Shown here: positions 8,587-57,289 of the stretch, in pieces
How positions within the stretch are numbered: position 1 is the first letter of the stretch
Layout of the letters: each line of letters starts with the position of its first letter
Source: a bacterium
GTDB taxonomy: Bacteria; Hydrothermota; Tepidihabitantia; Tepidihabitantales; Tepidihabitantaceae
Assembly: GCA_035505375.1 (NCBI GenBank)
Contig: DATJQV010000012.1
Location: 1 to 64,000 of the forward strand
Reading direction: 5' to 3'
Length of the DNA stretch: 64,000 bases
Notes under the pieces: model-generated
What the model was told of the DNA's origin: nothing
Databases searched by the model: none
The model's input: only the letters and a program-made list of their open reading frames with translations
Made by a program: the position numbers and the translations under genes

Positions 8587-10350
8587 TCAGCTAGCTTCCT
8601 CGGCAATCATGCTCTCCAGCCCGGCCTCGACTTCGGCAACCGTGAACTGCCTGCCGTCATACCGCCGAACCGTCCCGGCGGTTTGCACCCCGCACTCCTG
8701 CGACAGAAGCTGAGCCAGTTGACCCGAGTAGTTCTCTTCCACAGTCACGACCTTGCGATCCTTACTCACCATCGAGGCAACGGCCTCGGCCGGGAACGGC
8801 CAGACGTGGTCGAGGTACACCATGGCGACACTGACGCCTTTGGCGCGCAGGCGGCCAAGCGCCTCAGCCACCACCCCACGACTCGACCCGAAGCAGAACA
8901 CGAGTGTCTCAGCCTCAGCCTCAACCTTGACCTTCCGTTCCTCAACCTCCTGCCTGATACCCTCAATCTTCGAGTTGCGTTTGTTCACCATCAGGACACG
9001 CATCGCGGCATCCTCGGTTATGTGCCCTTCCTCGGTGTGCTCGTCCGAATCGGCATAGACAAGCTGTTGCTCGGTTCCCGGCAGCACGACCGGCGATACC
9101 CCGTTCTCCGTGACCTGATAGTGCCGATATGTGTACGGCTCGGATCCGTCCGCCACTTGGCGCTCTTGGCGTCCTTGGCGGTTATCCAGTTTCAGGTCGC
9201 TCCGCTCAATGGTCCACAGCGCGTCGGCCATGACCTGGTCAAACAGTATGATGACCGGCGTCTGGTACTTCTCGGCAATCCGGAACGCGTCCTGCGCTGC
9301 TCGGAATGCCTGCTCTGCGTCTGCCGGTGTCAGCACCGCACGCGGGAACTCGCCGTGTCCGGCGTTGATGGCAAACAGAAGGTCGGCCTGCGCCGTCCGA
9401 GTAGCCAGACCGGTTGCCGGGCCCGGCCGCATGCCCACGCACATTACCAGCGGGACCTCGGTCATGCCGGCCAGGCTCAGGGCCTCGTTCATCAGGCAGA
9501 ACCCGCCGCCGGCAGTGCAGACCATAGCCCGCTCTCCGGCGAACGCTGCGCCGATAGCGAGGTTGGCTGCCGACACCTCATCCTCGGTTTGCTCCACAAT
9601 CAGGCCTGCCTCCTCCGCGTTGCGGAAGCAGTATTCGACAATCGGGGTGGCCGGTGACATCGGATACCCGGTAACCACGCGCACATTAGCGGCAATTGCG
9701 CCCAGCGCCAGCGCCTCTGCGCCGGAAATCAGAAGCCGTTCTCTCGGTACACGATCCGTTTCCTCGGCGGAAACGGTCATGTCCCTCGACGCCTGCAGCC
9801 GGTGCGGGCAGCATCGTTTATGGTCATCCAGCACAGCATTGTACCCGGCCTTGGCTGCAGCCACATTGCGCTCAACTACCTCTTTGCCCTTGTGTCCGAA
9901 CTGGCTCTCGAACACTCCATCGAGACCGGCCGGCTCCAGCCCGACCAGAGCCAGTGCCGCACCAGTGGCAACCGAGTTAATCATGACCGGGTCCTTCCCG
10001 TGCTCCAGCGCGAGGTCTGCAAGCGGAAGTCGAACTACATTCAGTCCTTCGGGCAGATCGCCGACCGCCTCGGTCAACACGACGGCGTCCTCAGCCAGGT
10101 CGGGAACGTGCCGCTCTACCAGCGTGTGGTCCAGCGCGACGAGGATCTGGGCTTTGTCGCCGTCCGCAGCCACCGGCACATCGCTGACCCGCACCCGCGC
10201 GAAGTTATGCCCTCCCCGTATCCGCGACATCACGTCCTGCGAAACGAACACGTAGCGGCCGGCCCTGACCAGCAACCGGCCAAGCGTGCGCGAGATGACC
10301 TGGAGTCCCTGCCCTGCCTGCCCGGCGACAATCAGGTTGAGCTCTCTCAC
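8587..10350 (-). CDS. 2-oxoacid:ferredoxin oxidoreductase, fused gamma-alpha subunit, copy 1
   Basis: Partner of the beta subunit. The N-terminal gamma domain (about residues 1-185) has IVAGQAGQGLQVISRTLG and DVMSRIRGGHNFARVRVSD. The alpha domain follows with VTGYPMSPATPIVEY and the C-terminal transketolase-like segment. The start is a GTG whose GTGA overlaps the stop of korB copy 2 by 4 bases (10347-10350). The longer ATG frame beginning at 10434 runs inside korB copy 2 and is not the start. Length is 587 residues. A 9-base repeat (CTTGGCGCT-like, 9157-9183) lies in the coding sequence near the middle. Confidence 0.9.
   Translation of the reverse strand: MRELNLIVAGQAGQGLQVISRTLGRLLVRAGRYVFVSQDVMSRIRGGHNFARVRVSDVPVAADGDKAQILVALDHTLVERHVPDLAEDAVVLTEAVGDLPEGLNVVRLPLADLALEHGKDPVMINSVATGAALALVGLEPAGLDGVFESQFGHKGKEVVERNVAAAKAGYNAVLDDHKRCCPHRLQASRDMTVSAEETDRVPRERLLISGAEALALGAIAANVRVVTGYPMSPATPIVEYCFRNAEEAGLIVEQTEDEVSAANLAIGAAFAGERAMVCTAGGGFCLMNEALSLAGMTEVPLVMCVGMRPGPATGLATRTAQADLLFAINAGHGEFPRAVLTPADAEQAFRAAQDAFRIAEKYQTPVIILFDQVMADALWTIERSDLKLDNRQGRQERQVADGSEPYTYRHYQVTENGVSPVVLPGTEQQLVYADSDEHTEEGHITEDAAMRVLMVNKRNSKIEGIRQEVEERKVKVEAEAETLVFCFGSSRGVVAEALGRLRAKGVSVAMVYLDHVWPFPAEAVASMVSKDRKVVTVEENYSGQLAQLLSQECGVQTAGTVRRYDGRQFTVAEVEAGLESMIAEEAS
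9157..9183. repeat. Three tandem 9-base words inside korA copy 1
   Basis: CTTGGCGCT, CTTGGCGTC and CTTGGCGGT in a row, read on the minus strand as an Arg/Gln-rich segment. It resembles the other short periodic insertions of this window but has a 9-base unit, so the frame is kept automatically. Confidence 0.5.
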
Positions 10351-40153: not shown

Positions 40154-41113
40154 ATGACGGCCCTGTCGGTCAGCGGACTCGGCAAGACATATGGCCACGT
40201 TGCGGCGCTCAATGATGTATCGTTTGAGGTCGCGCCGGGCGAGCTGTTCTGTATCTCGGGGCCGGATGCCGCCGGCAAGTCCACGCTACTGCGCATCCTC
40301 GCCGGCACGCTGAAGCCCGATTCGGGCTCGGTGACAATCCTCGGCAGCGACGGCGTCAGCCGGCCGCCCATCCTTCGCTACTCAATCGGCTACATGCCGC
40401 AGCGGTTCGCCATCTATGCCGACCTGACCGCTGAGGAGAACCTCGCCTTCTATTGCGCGTTCTACGGTCTGGGTCGGGCCAGGACCGACATGCGGGTCGA
40501 GTACTTGCTCGGATTGACCCGGCTGGCCCGGTTCCGGAAGTTCCGTGCGGGCAACCTGTCCGGTGGCATGAAACAGAAGCTGGTGCTGGCGTGTGCGCTG
40601 GTACACGAGCCGGACATGATGCTTCTCGACGAGCCAACGACCGGCATCGACCCGCTGTCCCGCCGCGAGTTCTGGGGAATCCTGACCGACTACCTTGCCC
40701 GTGGCAAGACCATCATCTACTCAACGGTCTATCTGGAAGAGGCGCTGCGCTCGAACCGGATAGCTTTGATGGACTCCGGCACCGTTAAGGTCTGCGATAC
40801 GCCGGAGAACCTTCTGGCCCGGGTCCGGAACCGGCGCTTCACTGTCGCCACAGACGCACACGAACAGGCAGCGGCCGCACTCAGCGCATGTCCTCTGGTT
40901 GCTTCAGTGCAGCCACTGGGCTCGGGTGCAGCGTTCCTTATCATGGACACGCACGAGGCTCTGGAAGCCGCAATCGCCGCCCTCGCCGCAGCGGGCGTCA
41001 CGGCGAAGCCCGAGCCGGCCCAGCCCACGCTGGAGGACGTGCTCATCCTCGCCGCGGGACATGACCGAAATCCTCCCGGGATTTCGGGTCGTGTCCCAAA
41101 GCGGCCCCAATGA
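40154..41113 (+). CDS. ABC transporter ATP-binding protein (ABC-2 exporter, first)
   Basis: 319 residues. Walker A is [11 protein letters not shown] (an unusual DAA in place of NGA), the signature is NLSGGMKQK and Walker B is [13 protein letters not shown]. It resembles the first half of YbhF-type double ATPases; here the two halves are separate genes. A 42-base palindrome (41056-41097) encodes the C-terminal residues just before the stop. It overlaps the next ATPase gene by 4 bases. It should energise the two permeases downstream. Confidence 0.92.
41056..41097 (+). repeat. GGGACATGA-type palindrome, in frame at the end of the ABC gene
   Basis: 42 bases: outer arms GGGACATGACCGAAATC and the nearly complementary GATTTCGGGTCGTGTCCC. 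Related palindromes lie at 54842-54881 and 60025-60066. Confidence 0.75.
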
Positions 41114-49544: not shown

Positions 49545-49982
49545 GGAGGCGGGTCGGACGGTCGCCCCCAACCAACGCCGAACGCCAAACGCCGATGTCC
49601 GAAGTTCTGAAATCGGAGTTCGGAGTTTGCACTTCGGAGTTGCCACGGGGGAGGAAAGTCCGAGCACCGCGGGCGAGGCACTCGTTAAGAGCGAGGCTGC
49701 GGGTCGGAAACGGCCCGTGGACGGACAGTGTCACAGAAACCACACCGCCGCGTGCTTGCACGCGGCAAGGGTGAAAAAGTGCGGTAAGAGCGCACTATTC
49801 CGAATGGCGACATCCGGAATGGAAAAACCCTGCCCGGTGCAAGACCAACATGAGAACCGGACTGGCCCGGTCCATTCAAGTTCTCGGGTAGGTCGCTTGA
49901 GACGTGCGGGCAACCGCGCGCCCAGATAAATGACCGTCACCCGGCTTGCCGGGGACAGAACTCGGCTTACAGACCCGCCTCC
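49545..49982 (+). ncRNA. rnpB: RNase P RNA (bacterial type A)
   Basis: The catalytic RNA of tRNA 5'-end processing. P1 pairs GGAGGCGGGTC (49545-49555) with GACCCGCCTCC (49972-49982). Universal cores are present: GAGGAAAGTCCGAGC (49651-49665), GGTGAAAAAGTGCGGTAAG near 49768, GGTAGGTCGCTTGAG near 49889, AGATAAATGACCGTC near 49924 and ACAGAACTCGGCTTACAG (49955-49972), which pairs with the first to make P4. The length of about 438 is larger than usual because the P3 region (between GTCGCCCCC and GGGGGAGG) carries eight heptads as a long hairpin. Confidence 0.95.
49575..49640 (+). repeat. Eight heptads forming the extended P3 helix of RNase P RNA
   Basis: Left arm: ACGCCGA, ACGCCAA, ACGCCGA, TGTCCGA (49575-49602). 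Loop to 49612. Right arm: TCGGAGT, TCGGAGT, TTGCACT, TCGGAGT (49613-49640). Each left word pairs with a right word at about six of seven positions. Confidence 0.85.
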
Positions 49983-50018
49983 AATCTGCTTTGTGTCCCA
50001 TGCCGTGAGATGCCGGAG

Positions 50019-50463: not shown

Positions 50464-51147
50464 GTGCCGAGAATAGCGCGGATCGTGGTTCCCGGTGTTC
50501 TGCACCACGTTACGCAACGCGGGAACAACCGGCAGGACGTATTCCTCACGGATGGTGACCGTGAGTTCTATCTCGGGCTACTGCGCAAGCGTTCCGCACA
50601 ATACGGATTGGAAGTGCTTGGATATTGCCTGATGACAAACCACGTCCATCTGCTCGTCAGGCCGCAGACGGCTGATGCCATAGCTCGGGCATTGGGGCGC
50701 ACTCACTTCATCTACGCACAGCGATTCAATACGGAGCACTCCCGCAGCGGTCACTTGTGGCAGGCTCGTTTTTATTCCTGCCCTGCAGAGGAAACTACCC
50801 TCCTCGCCATCATGCGCTATATCGAGCAGAACCCGGTGCGTGCGCGTATCGTCACCCACGCCTGGGAGTACCCATGGTCAAGCGCTGCTTTGCACGTCGG
50901 CAGGCGGAAGGACTCGGGCATGATCGACGCAGCATCGTGGGCTAATCAGATTGCACCGGCCGAATGGCGCACGCTATTGCAGGAAGCTGAGGACGAGGGG
51001 CGCGTAACGGAGATCCGCCGCCGCACCATGATTGGCCGGCCGCTGGGCAGCCCTGAGTTTGTCAGCGAAGTCGAGGCGAAGTTAGACCGGCAGCTCGCCT
51101 ATCGACGACCAGGCCGGCCGCGCAAGGCCGAGCCAGAGCAGCAGTAG
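50464..51147 (+). mobile_element. REP-associated tyrosine transposase (RAYT, TnpA-REP)
   Basis: A 227-residue Y1 transposase of the HUH nuclease fold. Start RIVVPGVLHHVTQRGNNRQDVF, the HUH motif is NHVHLLV, and the catalytic Tyr is in IMRYIEQNPVRARIV. The C-terminus (RRPGRPRKAEPEQQ) is a basic tail. Such single-copy enzymes cut and join short palindromes (REPs) and are held to spread them, rather than moving themselves. Two palindrome families and many hairpin-forming repeats in this window are possible substrates. A GTG start directly follows the promoter. Confidence 0.92.
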
Positions 51148-54671: not shown

Positions 54672-54841
54672 GGTGGCCGCGGCTTCGCCGCAAGCCGTGC
54701 AGTTCCTGGTCCATAGTCCTACGCCCGTCCGATTCGTTTCCGTCTTGCATCGCCGGCCCGCGATGATACTCTTATCCCAACAATCTGGAAGAGCGGTGGA
54801 AGACCGGGTGCGTGTCCACGCACGAACGGTTGCGCAAGCTT

Positions 54842-54881
54842 GGGACACGATCCCAAATCTCGGAGATTTGGGTCATGTCCC
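54842..54881 (+). repeat. GGGACA-type palindrome within the riboswitch 5' part
   Basis: Arms GGGACACGATCCCAAATCT and AGATTTGGGTCATGTCCC, flanked by TTGCGC and GCGCA that could close the stem. Same family as 41056-41097. Confidence 0.75.
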
Positions 54882-54987
54882 GCGCACAGGGAAAGCCGTG
54901 TGAATCGGCTGCGGTCCCACCCACTGTGAGCGGTTCCTCGCTCTGTCACACTGACGACTCGGATAGTCAGAATGCAGGGCCAGTAGG

Positions 54988-55022
54988 TTCTGACTTCTGG
55001 TTTCTGAATTCTGAATTGTCCG
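54988..55022 (+). repeat. Five heptads within the cobalamin riboswitch
   Basis: TTCTGAC, TTCTGGT, TTCTGAA, TTCTGAA, TTGTCCG in exact register, between conserved riboswitch blocks. Confidence 0.85.
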
Positions 55023-55135
55023 GTTCGGTGTACTGCCACTGGCCTTGGCCGGGAAGGCGACAGAGTCATGCCGCAAGCCAGGAGACCTGTCCGCCGCCTC
55101 CAATAGGTTCAACTTGTGAGGAAAGGAGAATCGTG

Positions 55136-57289
55136 ATGCAGACGAAGTCAAAGGGCAAAGGTCAAAGGGGAAGTGTCAAAGGACCCGGAGCGACCCGGCT
55201 TGCCCTGCTGGTTGCGCTCGCCGGGGTGGCCGCAGCGGGAACGCTGCGAGGTGTGGTGCTGGATGCCGAAACCCGGCAGCCGGTAGGCTATGCAGCAGTC
55301 AATGTCCCAGACTTGGAACTCAGCACGACGGCCGACTCAACCGGCTCATTTGCGCTTGAGCTTGGGTCCGCTCCCAGTCGCATAACCGTCGTGATCTCTC
55401 GCGTCGGGTATGAAGAGCGTCGCTGGGACGATGTCAGCGTCCAACGAGCCGCGGCTTTCTACCTGCGACCCAGCGCGGTCCGAATGAAGGGAATCTCCGT
55501 AACCGCATTTCGCACTCCGACTGATATCAATCGCTCCGGCCCGGTCTCGGTAATCGAGCCCGGCGACTCAGCCGTCAGCGGCGGCACCAACGTAGCAGAC
55601 CTGCTGCAGGATATGCCATCAGTCATGCTGAAGGACTATGGCAACCTGACGACCATCGGTCTGCGCGGCGCCAACGCGGAACAAACCCTCATACTCTTCG
55701 ATGGAGTCAGGCTAAATTCCGCCCAGGACAACCTATTCGACCTGACTTTGCTGCCCTTGTCGCAGGCCCAGCGGTTAGAAGTCGTCAGGGGCAATAACTC
55801 AGCCCTGTATGGCGCCAACTCCATCGGCGGGCTGGTCAACGTACTCACGCCTGACCCGGAATCGCTCGGCGCGAAGGCGGTCGCTGGCCTCGGCTCGTTC
55901 GGTCGGCGCTATCTAGAGGCTACGCACACCAACTGGTCGGCCCCGCTTGGTTACGTCGTTACCGGCAGCCTGAGCCGAACCGGTGACAAGTTCACGTACC
56001 GGGACACGATGGACTCGCTGCATGAGCGCATCAACTCCGGCATTAACTCCGAGGACGTGATGGCCAAGGGCGTCTACGCGCAAGGCCCGCACCGTGTGTC
56101 ATTGCTAGGCGAATACGGCATCACCCGGCGCGGCGAGCCAGGTCCGACTTCCTGGCCGGCGGACAGCGCCCGCATGGAGGAGTACCGCGGTATCGCGCAC
56201 CTTGCCTACGACCTGCAGGAGACCGACAACTCCAGGCTCGAATCGCGACTCTACTATCACCAGTCTTGGCTGCACTATTGGGACCCGGATACGCTGGCGT
56301 GGGCCAATGACACGCACGTTACGACTATGGCCGGGCTCAACGCGCAGCAGACGACGCATCTTGCCGAATGGGCCACAGCGATTGTCGGACTTGAGGGCGC
56401 GCGCGAGCAGTTCCGAAGTTCGGCCATCGGCACCCCCCAGCGTCTGACCGGCTCAGGCTGGGCCGAGGCGCGTTTGAATTGGCTGGGCTTCGACATTGTG
56501 CCGATGGCGCGATACGACTGGCTGGATGATTCGAGGCAGGAGCCGGACTCCATGCTCACCCGCTCCAGAACCCGTGTCATCAATCCCAAACTCTCACTGA
56601 GCTACTCAGCTTCTTCCTGGCTCAACCTCTACGCCTCGGTCGGACGGTCCTTTCGCGCCCCGACCTTCAATGAACTCTACTGGCCTGCGGACCCATGGAC
56701 CAAAGGCAACCCAAACCTGAAACCGGAATGGGCGACCAGCGTGGACCTTGGCGTGTCGGCCCGGTACGAGTCACTACTTTCCGGGCGGCTCGGGCTCTGG
56801 CACTCATCCCTGACCGACCTCATCGAGTGGCAGCCGGACTCGGCCTATGTCTACAGGCCGGTGAATCTCGACACCGCAACCATCACCGGAGCTGAAGTCG
56901 AGTTCTGCCTTGGTGCCAGGCACGCCGGCCTTGACGGCAACGCCACTTACATGCTCGCCCGCTCACACGGCATGGACCTCATCTACCGACCTCGACTCAG
57001 CTTCGGCGTGTCGCCATGGGCCGGCTGGGGCATAGCAGAGATGACCTGCGACGTCCGCTACACTGGTTCGAGGTACACGACACCGGACACGTTGCCGCCG
57101 AGCGGAGCGAACTCGCTGCCCAGCTACCTATTGGTCGATGTCGGCCTGGCAGTTAGTCCGACATTCGGCCACATAGGGACCGCGCTGCGCGGCGGAGTCC
57201 GCAATCTGTTTGACCGGCAGTACGAAGTGATGAGAGACTATCCGGTTCCGGGTCGCAACTGGTACGCTGAAATCGAGCTGAAACTCTAG
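55136..57289 (+). CDS. TonB-dependent outer-membrane receptor, BtuB-like
   Basis: 717 residues. A carboxypeptidase-regulatory-like domain (residues about 38-118, TLRGVVLDAETRQPVGYAAVNV) precedes the plug (VADLLQDMPSVMLKDYG, then TIGLRGANAEQTLILFDGVRLN, RLEVVRGNNSALYGANSIGG) and a 22-strand-type barrel ending YAEIELKL. The riboswitch upstream argues for cobalamin or a corrinoid as ligand. The start is ATG 55136 with AAAGGAG nine bases before it. The first residues before the signal helix (SKGKGQRGSVKGPG) are encoded by six heptads. The gene overlaps the convergent M23 gene by four bases. Confidence 0.9.
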   Translation: MQTKSKGKGQRGSVKGPGATRLALLVALAGVAAAGTLRGVVLDAETRQPVGYAAVNVPDLELSTTADSTGSFALELGSAPSRITVVISRVGYEERRWDDVSVQRAAAFYLRPSAVRMKGISVTAFRTPTDINRSGPVSVIEPGDSAVSGGTNVADLLQDMPSVMLKDYGNLTTIGLRGANAEQTLILFDGVRLNSAQDNLFDLTLLPLSQAQRLEVVRGNNSALYGANSIGGLVNVLTPDPESLGAKAVAGLGSFGRRYLEATHTNWSAPLGYVVTGSLSRTGDKFTYRDTMDSLHERINSGINSEDVMAKGVYAQGPHRVSLLGEYGITRRGEPGPTSWPADSARMEEYRGIAHLAYDLQETDNSRLESRLYYHQSWLHYWDPDTLAWANDTHVTTMAGLNAQQTTHLAEWATAIVGLEGAREQFRSSAIGTPQRLTGSGWAEARLNWLGFDIVPMARYDWLDDSRQEPDSMLTRSRTRVINPKLSLSYSASSWLNLYASVGRSFRAPTFNELYWPADPWTKGNPNLKPEWATSVDLGVSARYESLLSGRLGLWHSSLTDLIEWQPDSAYVYRPVNLDTATITGAEVEFCLGARHAGLDGNATYMLARSHGMDLIYRPRLSFGVSPWAGWGIAEMTCDVRYTGSRYTTPDTLPPSGANSLPSYLLVDVGLAVSPTFGHIGTALRGGVRNLFDRQYEVMRDYPVPGRNWYAEIELKL
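55146..55187 (+). repeat. Six in-frame heptads in the receptor signal region
   Basis: AGTCAAA, GGGCAAA, GGTCAAA, GGGGAAG, TGTCAAA, GGACCCG. They give a Lys/Gly-rich n-region ahead of the signal-peptide helix. Confidence 0.8.

Follow-up and report, generated by a model that had tools for sequence, protein, structure and literature searches.

Two self-folding repeat inserts in the peripheral helices of a cobalamin riboswitch

Described repeat families and the present locus

The closest described counterparts of the repeats studied here are the palindromic elements of Rickettsia (RPE), reportedly described by Ogata et al. in 2000 and 2002, and the STRR, heptanucleotide repeats built of heptad units that Vioque is said to have found in cyanobacterial RNase P RNA in 1997. 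The present locus lies in the window, by which we mean the whole 64,000-nucleotide stretch of DNA that was analysed, and comprises a cobalamin riboswitch with two hairpin inserts. Going by that description, the heptads resemble STRR in that short tandem units occur in RNase P RNA (in the P3 insert of the window) and that heptads are dispersed in the genome. They differ in lineage, in having a riboswitch as a further host, and in that here the arrays fold into hairpins within their host RNAs.

Passages of PMC2229807 place RPE in protein genes, in tmRNA and in M1 RNA; RPE, which passages of PMC10969869 treat as well, measure 105-146 bp. As far as those passages describe RPE, the element studied here is like them in forming dispersed palindromes that have inserted in frame into unrelated protein genes and also into genes for structured RNAs, but it is unlike them in its size (about 48 bp versus 105-146 bp), in belonging to another bacterial lineage, and in counting a riboswitch among its hosts. 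Another difference is its stem, which covaries and encloses a mismatch/bulge core that does not vary. We do not file the element as an RPE because its size lies outside the RPE range and the likeness is one of description, not of compared sequences. Judged by analogy, its way of life matches that of RPE.

A third comparison is with the REP/RAYT systems, which, as portrayed in parts of PMC3733652 and PMC2817692, share with the present case short high-copy palindromes and Y1 transposase genes in the genome. Unlike them, the element is mostly intragenic (29/38 copies), has no GTAG or CGTC tag in its consensus, and lacks convincing copies beside transposase genes. Y1_Tnp has five matches in the source genome, and a RAYT-like Y1 transposase gene follows RNase P in the window (50464-51147, +). 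A RAYT is a possible mover of the element, though no link between the two was seen: such genes exist, but at the 30 transposase loci inspected no flanking copy was convincing and one weak match was recorded (15.5 bits, E 0.072). Among the titles and abstract openings listed from an open-licence library, none dealt with repeats within the aptamer of a riboswitch, and when four 11-12-base pieces of the element were compared with the text of that literature, none of the matches listed was on bacterial repeats by title.

The riboswitch and its two inserts

Rfam family RF00174 (Cobalamin) matches the window at 54847-55108 (+); the score of 50.2 bits exceeds the gathering cut-off of 31.5. This is the sole RF00174 match in the source genome (G000), and there is one in each of the six genus genomes, that is, G000 and its five same-genus relatives (G001-G005). 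An earlier note on this DNA had claimed a complete cobalamin riboswitch at 54824-55098. The Rfam match, the core blocks and the B12 box bear out the identification and the locus, but both limits have to be moved outward, as the real 5' start lies about 38 bases earlier and the expression platform reaches 55132.

In the MFE fold of 54786-55145, the 5' strand of P1 (TGGAAGAGCGGTGGA, 54786-54800, +), which is kept across the genus, pairs with the 3' strand at 55090-55102 (+). Between P1 and P2 the fold has an extra hairpin, GACCG...CGGTT (54802-54831, +), and a GACC...GGTT hairpin recurs at this place among family sequences. P2 with its inserted palindrome occupies 54831-54886 (+) on a base stem of TGCGC (54831-54835) and GCGCA (54882-54886). 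The aptamer core, placed by Rfam and the family sequences, runs from CAGGGAA via P4 and L5 (UCCCAC, 54915-54920) into P6 (54887-54940, +), and is followed by the genus-conserved 5' strand of the arm helix, CTCTGTC (54941-54947, +), which lies opposite GACAGAG (55059-55065) in the fold. Further 3' come a conserved GCCACTGG...CCGGGAAGG helix, recognized in the ortholog alignment (55035-55057, +), the B12 box AGCCAGGAGACCTG of the Rfam alignment (55076-55089, +), and the P13/L13 expression platform with its stem GGTTC/GAATC (55106-55132, +). L13 (GTG-A-GGA, 55116-55122) pairs with L5 and adjoins the ribosome binding site AAGGAG (55123-55128, +). The gene 3' of the riboswitch (55136-57289, +; ATG at 55136) encodes a btuB-like TonB-dependent receptor with a carboxypeptidase-regulatory-like domain (Pfam PF00593, PF07715 and PF13620), a class not specific to B12 uptake. 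A heptad-like repeat of period 14 (GTCAAAGGGCAAAG, 55147-55182) lies inside the first codons of this receptor gene, and receptor-gene starts resembling GACGAAGTCA are seen also in G001, G003 and G005.

The core bases, B12 box, P1, kissing loop and ribosome binding site are all intact, the MFE fold over the full 360 nt retains P1, P2 and the arm, and the core without the 86-nt insert described below agrees with four orthologs in 104-106 of the 117 aligned columns. L5 (UCCCAC) and L13 (GUG-A-GGA) form 6/6 pairs with one bulged base, and this kissing loop covaries across family members. Watson-Crick pairs number 80/84 over 14 of the 16 family members (G002 and G015, which have no L13 motif, are left out), a count equalled by 0/10,000 shuffles, and 40/42 over the 7 distinct L5-L13 combinations (8/10,000 shuffles as high); only 4/6 pairs form in G006 and in G012. 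The family sequence set omits G021 and G055, which have no motif match. According to passages of PMC10653944, the kissing loop of the env8HyCbl riboswitch has a mismatch and a bulge, and in translational types a hairpin at the ribosome binding site is controlled by L5-L13 pairing. We conclude that the RNA is a cobalamin riboswitch, probably of the translational, L5-L13 kissing-loop type, and expect from its conserved parts that it would still sense B12 and regulate with both inserts in place. It shares with RF00174 the core, the B12 box, a kissing loop with a bulged base, and a ribosome binding site beside L13, and is unlike it in bearing repeat inserts at the P2 tip and in the arm, one of them a proven dispersed element.

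In the sequence alignment, none of the five same-genus orthologs carries either insert. P2 of G001-G004 reads TTGCAG-loop-CTGCA with a short loop, as against TTGCGC-element-GCGCA in the window, and the base stem is thus altered on both strands (TGCAG/CTGCA to TGCGC/GCGCA) with its pairing kept. In G005, P2 is filled by another inverted repeat of about 90 nt that is itself dispersed, its best other copies being 96% identical over 91 nt. Many partial copies of this G005 repeat (locus L036; CACAGATGGACACTGATGAACAC...) occur across the genus. The second insert of the window, at 54949-55034 (+), is an 86-nt self-folding sequence defined by the ortholog alignment and the fold. It occupies the 5' bulge between two arm helices, not a terminal loop: after the CTCTGTC/GACAGAG helix the 5' side of the bulge has about 3 bases in the five orthologs and 86 nt in the window, and the real CCACTGG/CCGGGAAGG element (55035-55057) lies 3' of it. 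The heptads TTCTGAC TTCTGGT TTCTGAA TTCTGAA TTGTCCG (54988-55022, +) are in the 3' half of the insert and pair with its 5' half. G003 has its own heptad-bearing insert of about 90 nt, placed in the loop that closes the next arm helix, which folds weakly as a helix extension (z -2.07; 8/200 shuffles as good), and G007, of a different genus, has a riboswitch insert at a more 3' position. Three of the six genus members (G001, G002 and G004) have no insert in P2 or the arm. Relative to shuffles, the fold z-scores are -4.4 for the P2 hairpin, -5.3 for the 86-nt insert alone, and -5.7 for the G005 P2 insert. By the ortholog alignment, the window inserts are more recent than the divergence from the genus relatives, and the P2 tip and the arm are predicted to be exposed in the folded RNA.

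The raw Rfam alignment gives a different picture. It spreads the palindrome over P1/P2, where many of the resulting pairs are non-standard, and sets the 86-nt insert within CCACUG...CGGGAAGG. We discarded this insert placement because the ortholog alignment shows it to be misplaced, and since the orthologs do not have the palindrome, its placement in P1/P2 is a misalignment forced by the insert. RF00174 scores are 75.1, 77.4 and 80.6 bits in the insert-free G001, G002 and G004, 66.8 bits in G003, and 47.9-50.2 bits in the window. Such inserts thus lower the Rfam score by about 10 to 30 bits relative to insert-free orthologs, and they can cause automatic alignments to misplace core helices.

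Most of what the earlier note said of the repeats holds in altered form. Its palindrome at 54842-54881 is indeed in P2, where orthologs are short, and the TTGCGC/GCGCA flanks are the P2 base stem (TTGCAG/CTGCA in orthologs), but the repeated unit is not 40 bases long: it is an element of about 48 nt at 54838-54885. Four of its five heptads are clear and the fifth (TTGTCCG) is weak; they do sit in a peripheral arm, but as part of the longer 86-nt insert. A palindrome on core-paired positions, which the note had raised as an objection to its own reading, is literally what raw Rfam output shows; the orthologs identify it as a misalignment, and the riboswitch match itself was found. The note was also right that this is the second structured RNA of the window with repeats. 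The other is the Rfam-matched class A RNase P RNA (49546-49985, +), whose P3 loop has a heptad-rich insert at about 49570-49646 that is missing in the five same-genus relatives and has a fold z-score of -4.1. The helix names P3, P12 and P19 are those that we take to apply to this RNA.

The dispersed element, its hosts and the heptad arrays

The P2 palindrome is a copy of a dispersed hairpin element of about 48 bp (54838-54885, +; 73.6 bits with model R1, whose match spans 54837-54885), and is identical at 46/46 bases to G000:C4:41035-41080. Two further copies lie in the window, one (41052-41102, -) in frame close to the end of a called gene (40154-41113), the other (9741-9789, +) in frame in a 2-oxoacid:ferredoxin oxidoreductase gene (8587-10350, -), where it falls between the POR and POR_N domains. 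With the 61-nt P2 region as query, the element is present in all six genus genomes. R1 finds at least 94 copies in G000, a lower bound as 99 candidates were scored, and detects the element in 12/61 relatives; a scan of the phylum found it in 12/147 genomes, every one of them in family f1.

An alignment of 34 copies from G000 has 16 invariant columns that form an asymmetric core, ACACGA.CC ... GTC..GTCCC, in which a C/A mismatch and an unpaired T are surrounded by a covarying stem. Of 610 stem cells, 94.9% are paired, as against 25-55% in slid controls, and cells changed on both sides number 67, against 24.8 in shuffles. Two further covariation measures did not exceed shuffles: the number of pairs changed on both sides (62/500 as high) and that of further pair types (471/500 as high). 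The consensus ends CTTGGG.../...GTCCCGCGC, and two end variants occur, CTTGGG..CCCGCGC and CTCGGG..CCCTCG. By eye, the ortholog alignment yielded no consistent target-site duplication, the two variants blurring the ends.

We collected 38 copies, mostly by similarity to the window copy, from 402,343 bases of G000 (the window and the loci), with genes called by our own codon-usage caller in place of a standard one. Twenty-nine lie wholly inside called genes, a count that includes two doubtful copies (L117:923 with 5 mismatches and L111:9084 with 4); 2 overlap a gene and 7 are intergenic, among them the riboswitch copy. The coding fraction of an unselected G000 sample is 80%, so genes are not avoided by the element. 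Copies in genes have the orientation of the host in 10 cases and the opposite one in 19, which makes it less likely that the element acts in its hosts as an RNA of one particular strand. The alanyl-tRNA synthetase gene (L150, G000:C75:42500-44200) has three in-frame copies, two of which are net 45-nt insertions relative to empty orthologs, the third being common to G001; one of the two insertion sites is occupied in G003 by extra sequence of an unrelated kind. Of 10 proteins scanned, 6 have a Pfam match that extends across a copy, namely alanyl-tRNA synthetase, molybdopterin oxidoreductase, CitF, peptidase C25, a beta-lactamase-superfamily protein and RtcB. At L148 and L163, the element is found at an identical place of a repeated C-terminal domain in several proteins, in the order RGVLFL or RGVLYL, element, LLD or LDASGRK. 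Some copies have therefore probably spread by domain duplication, not by new insertion.

Structured RNAs are hosts as well. In 90 sources (the window and the riboswitch and RNase P loci), R1 matches lie in the window riboswitch and in two RNase P RNAs, at the P12 tip in G015 (L080) and within the P19 region in G003 (L034); the other matches are elsewhere in the window, outside the RNase P match in L095, or weaker ones at these same sites on the opposite strand. A passage of PMC2858038 lists P12 and P19 among RNase P helices. A different small hairpin, of the GCCCTGAGCG...CGAAGGGC type, occurs in P12 of G005 and G008. Among the relatives, RNase P matches of full length span about 340 to 790 nt, and those of 740-790 nt are seen in other families of the class (L088 of G043, L089 of G048 and L086 of G037). 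In tmRNA, no such inserts were apparent by size in the 17 genomes over the cut-off, all with about 350-358 nt, and thus not every structured RNA has been colonized.

Heptad arrays are a second repeat class of this genome. The best lag-7 score of the 86-nt insert is 19/24, which none of 20,000 first-order Markov resamples reaches; the same score is reached by 97 of 8,317 segments of 86 nt in a genome sample, so heptad arrays are common here. In 358,873 bases of G000, 24 lag-7 arrays exceed the threshold, 17 of them mostly inside called genes, whereas other lags from 4 to 21 give 0-6 arrays, save lag 12 (12 arrays) and lag 14 (7 arrays, a multiple of 7). The units vary (TTCTGAA, CCCTCGT, AAGGACA, GGCTTGG and others). 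The riboswitch array itself is missing from this genome listing and from Tandem Repeats Finder output at score 50, although it is far above chance, and its heptads have dispersed matches, the best with 93% over about 42 nt. We dismissed the idea that heptad arrays are generally hairpins, as only 3/24 have an inverted partner above all random controls; the heptad hairpin of the riboswitch is therefore not typical of its class.

Explanations for the inserts

Our preferred reading, to which we give a probability of roughly 0.8, is that mobile-type hairpins are tolerated at peripheral helices, as RPE are in tmRNA and RNase P RNA, and here also in a riboswitch. On this reading, two short hairpin repeats entered the riboswitch after its split from the same-genus orthologs, namely the dispersed palindromic element of about 48 bp and a longer inverted repeat that has a heptad array as its 3' arm. 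Both fold on themselves, and each either extends a peripheral helix or hangs from a bulge. As the binding core and the kissing loop are untouched, an insert could survive as a near-neutral passenger, and we infer that both inserts are near-neutral and do little.

The inserts might instead have been put to use, a long P2 or heptad hairpin tuning folding kinetics, B12 affinity or mRNA stability, with slippage perhaps varying the length of the heptad array so that the switch differs between cells. The P2 base pairs that differ from the orthologs on both strands and still pair would suit such a role, as would the independent recurrence of inserts (in P2 of G000 and G005, and in the CCACTGG arm of G000 and G003) and the folding of the inserts well below shuffles. 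However, the kept P2 pairing shows that pairing in P2 matters and no more, copies in protein genes run in both directions (10 with the gene, 19 against it), and insert sequence, size and family vary among relatives, with 3/6 genus members having none. No specific insert is thus needed, and we hold a function of this kind to be unlikely. The opposite outcome, in which the inserts have wrecked the riboswitch and the receptor has escaped B12 control, would account for the fall in Rfam score from 75-81 bits in the three insert-free orthologs to 47.9-50.2 in the window, but is hard to reconcile with an intact core, B12 box, P1, kissing loop and ribosome binding site and with an MFE fold that keeps P1, P2 and the arm; we regard such decay as quite improbable.

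The presence of the element in RNAs also bears on whether it seeks out hairpins, in DNA or RNA, with structured RNA genes as preferred sites. Ten riboswitches and nine RNase P RNAs hold 3 copies, where random placement would give 0.07 (P about 6e-5 for three or more), although one of the three, that in the window riboswitch, is what prompted the analysis and the copy numbers are minimum values; for two or more copies in these RNAs, random placement gives P of 2.5e-3. Against such targeting, 29/38 copies lie in called genes, near the 80% coding fraction, and tmRNA has none by size. As a general rule we rejected it, since the flanks of 46 copies were not more complementary than shuffled ones (60/300 shuffles as high), with 3/46 copies above the shuffled 95th percentile. 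With this test negative, tolerance at exposed tips together with chance is the simpler account of the RNA excess, and we consider hairpin targeting very unlikely. Both inserts are known from one MAG (contamination 4.71%), and short-read assemblers fail at repeats, which could suggest an artefact of a single assembly. Both inserts, however, are compatible with the secondary structure, the two strands of the P2 stem have changed without loss of pairing, and other genus members have different inserts in the same parts of the riboswitch, so that we see hardly any likelihood of an artefact.

A bolder reading than tolerated insertion would have several unrelated kinds of mobile or repeat hairpin repeatedly enter peripheral helices of essential RNAs in this bacterial family and reshape them, with the host helix co-evolving (as the P2 pairs altered on both strands may reflect) and some insert now altering the working of the riboswitch or RNase P. 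We think this improbable; if true, it would amount to riboswitch evolution driven by repeats. The filled and empty sites across the genus form a natural insertion scan of the riboswitch and of RNase P RNA, indicating helix tips that seem to bear 40-90 extra bases. Beyond Rickettsia, the element also provides a further lineage whose protein genes (one tRNA synthetase three times over) and catalytic or sensing RNAs have been entered by a short palindrome.

The two RNA hosts are also neighbors in part of the genus: in G002, G003 and G005 (L033, L034 and L036), RNase P and the cobalamin riboswitch are adjacent on one strand, with about 110-230 bases between the Rfam matches. In the window they are about 4.9 kb apart, with the transposase gene and two other ORFs between them.
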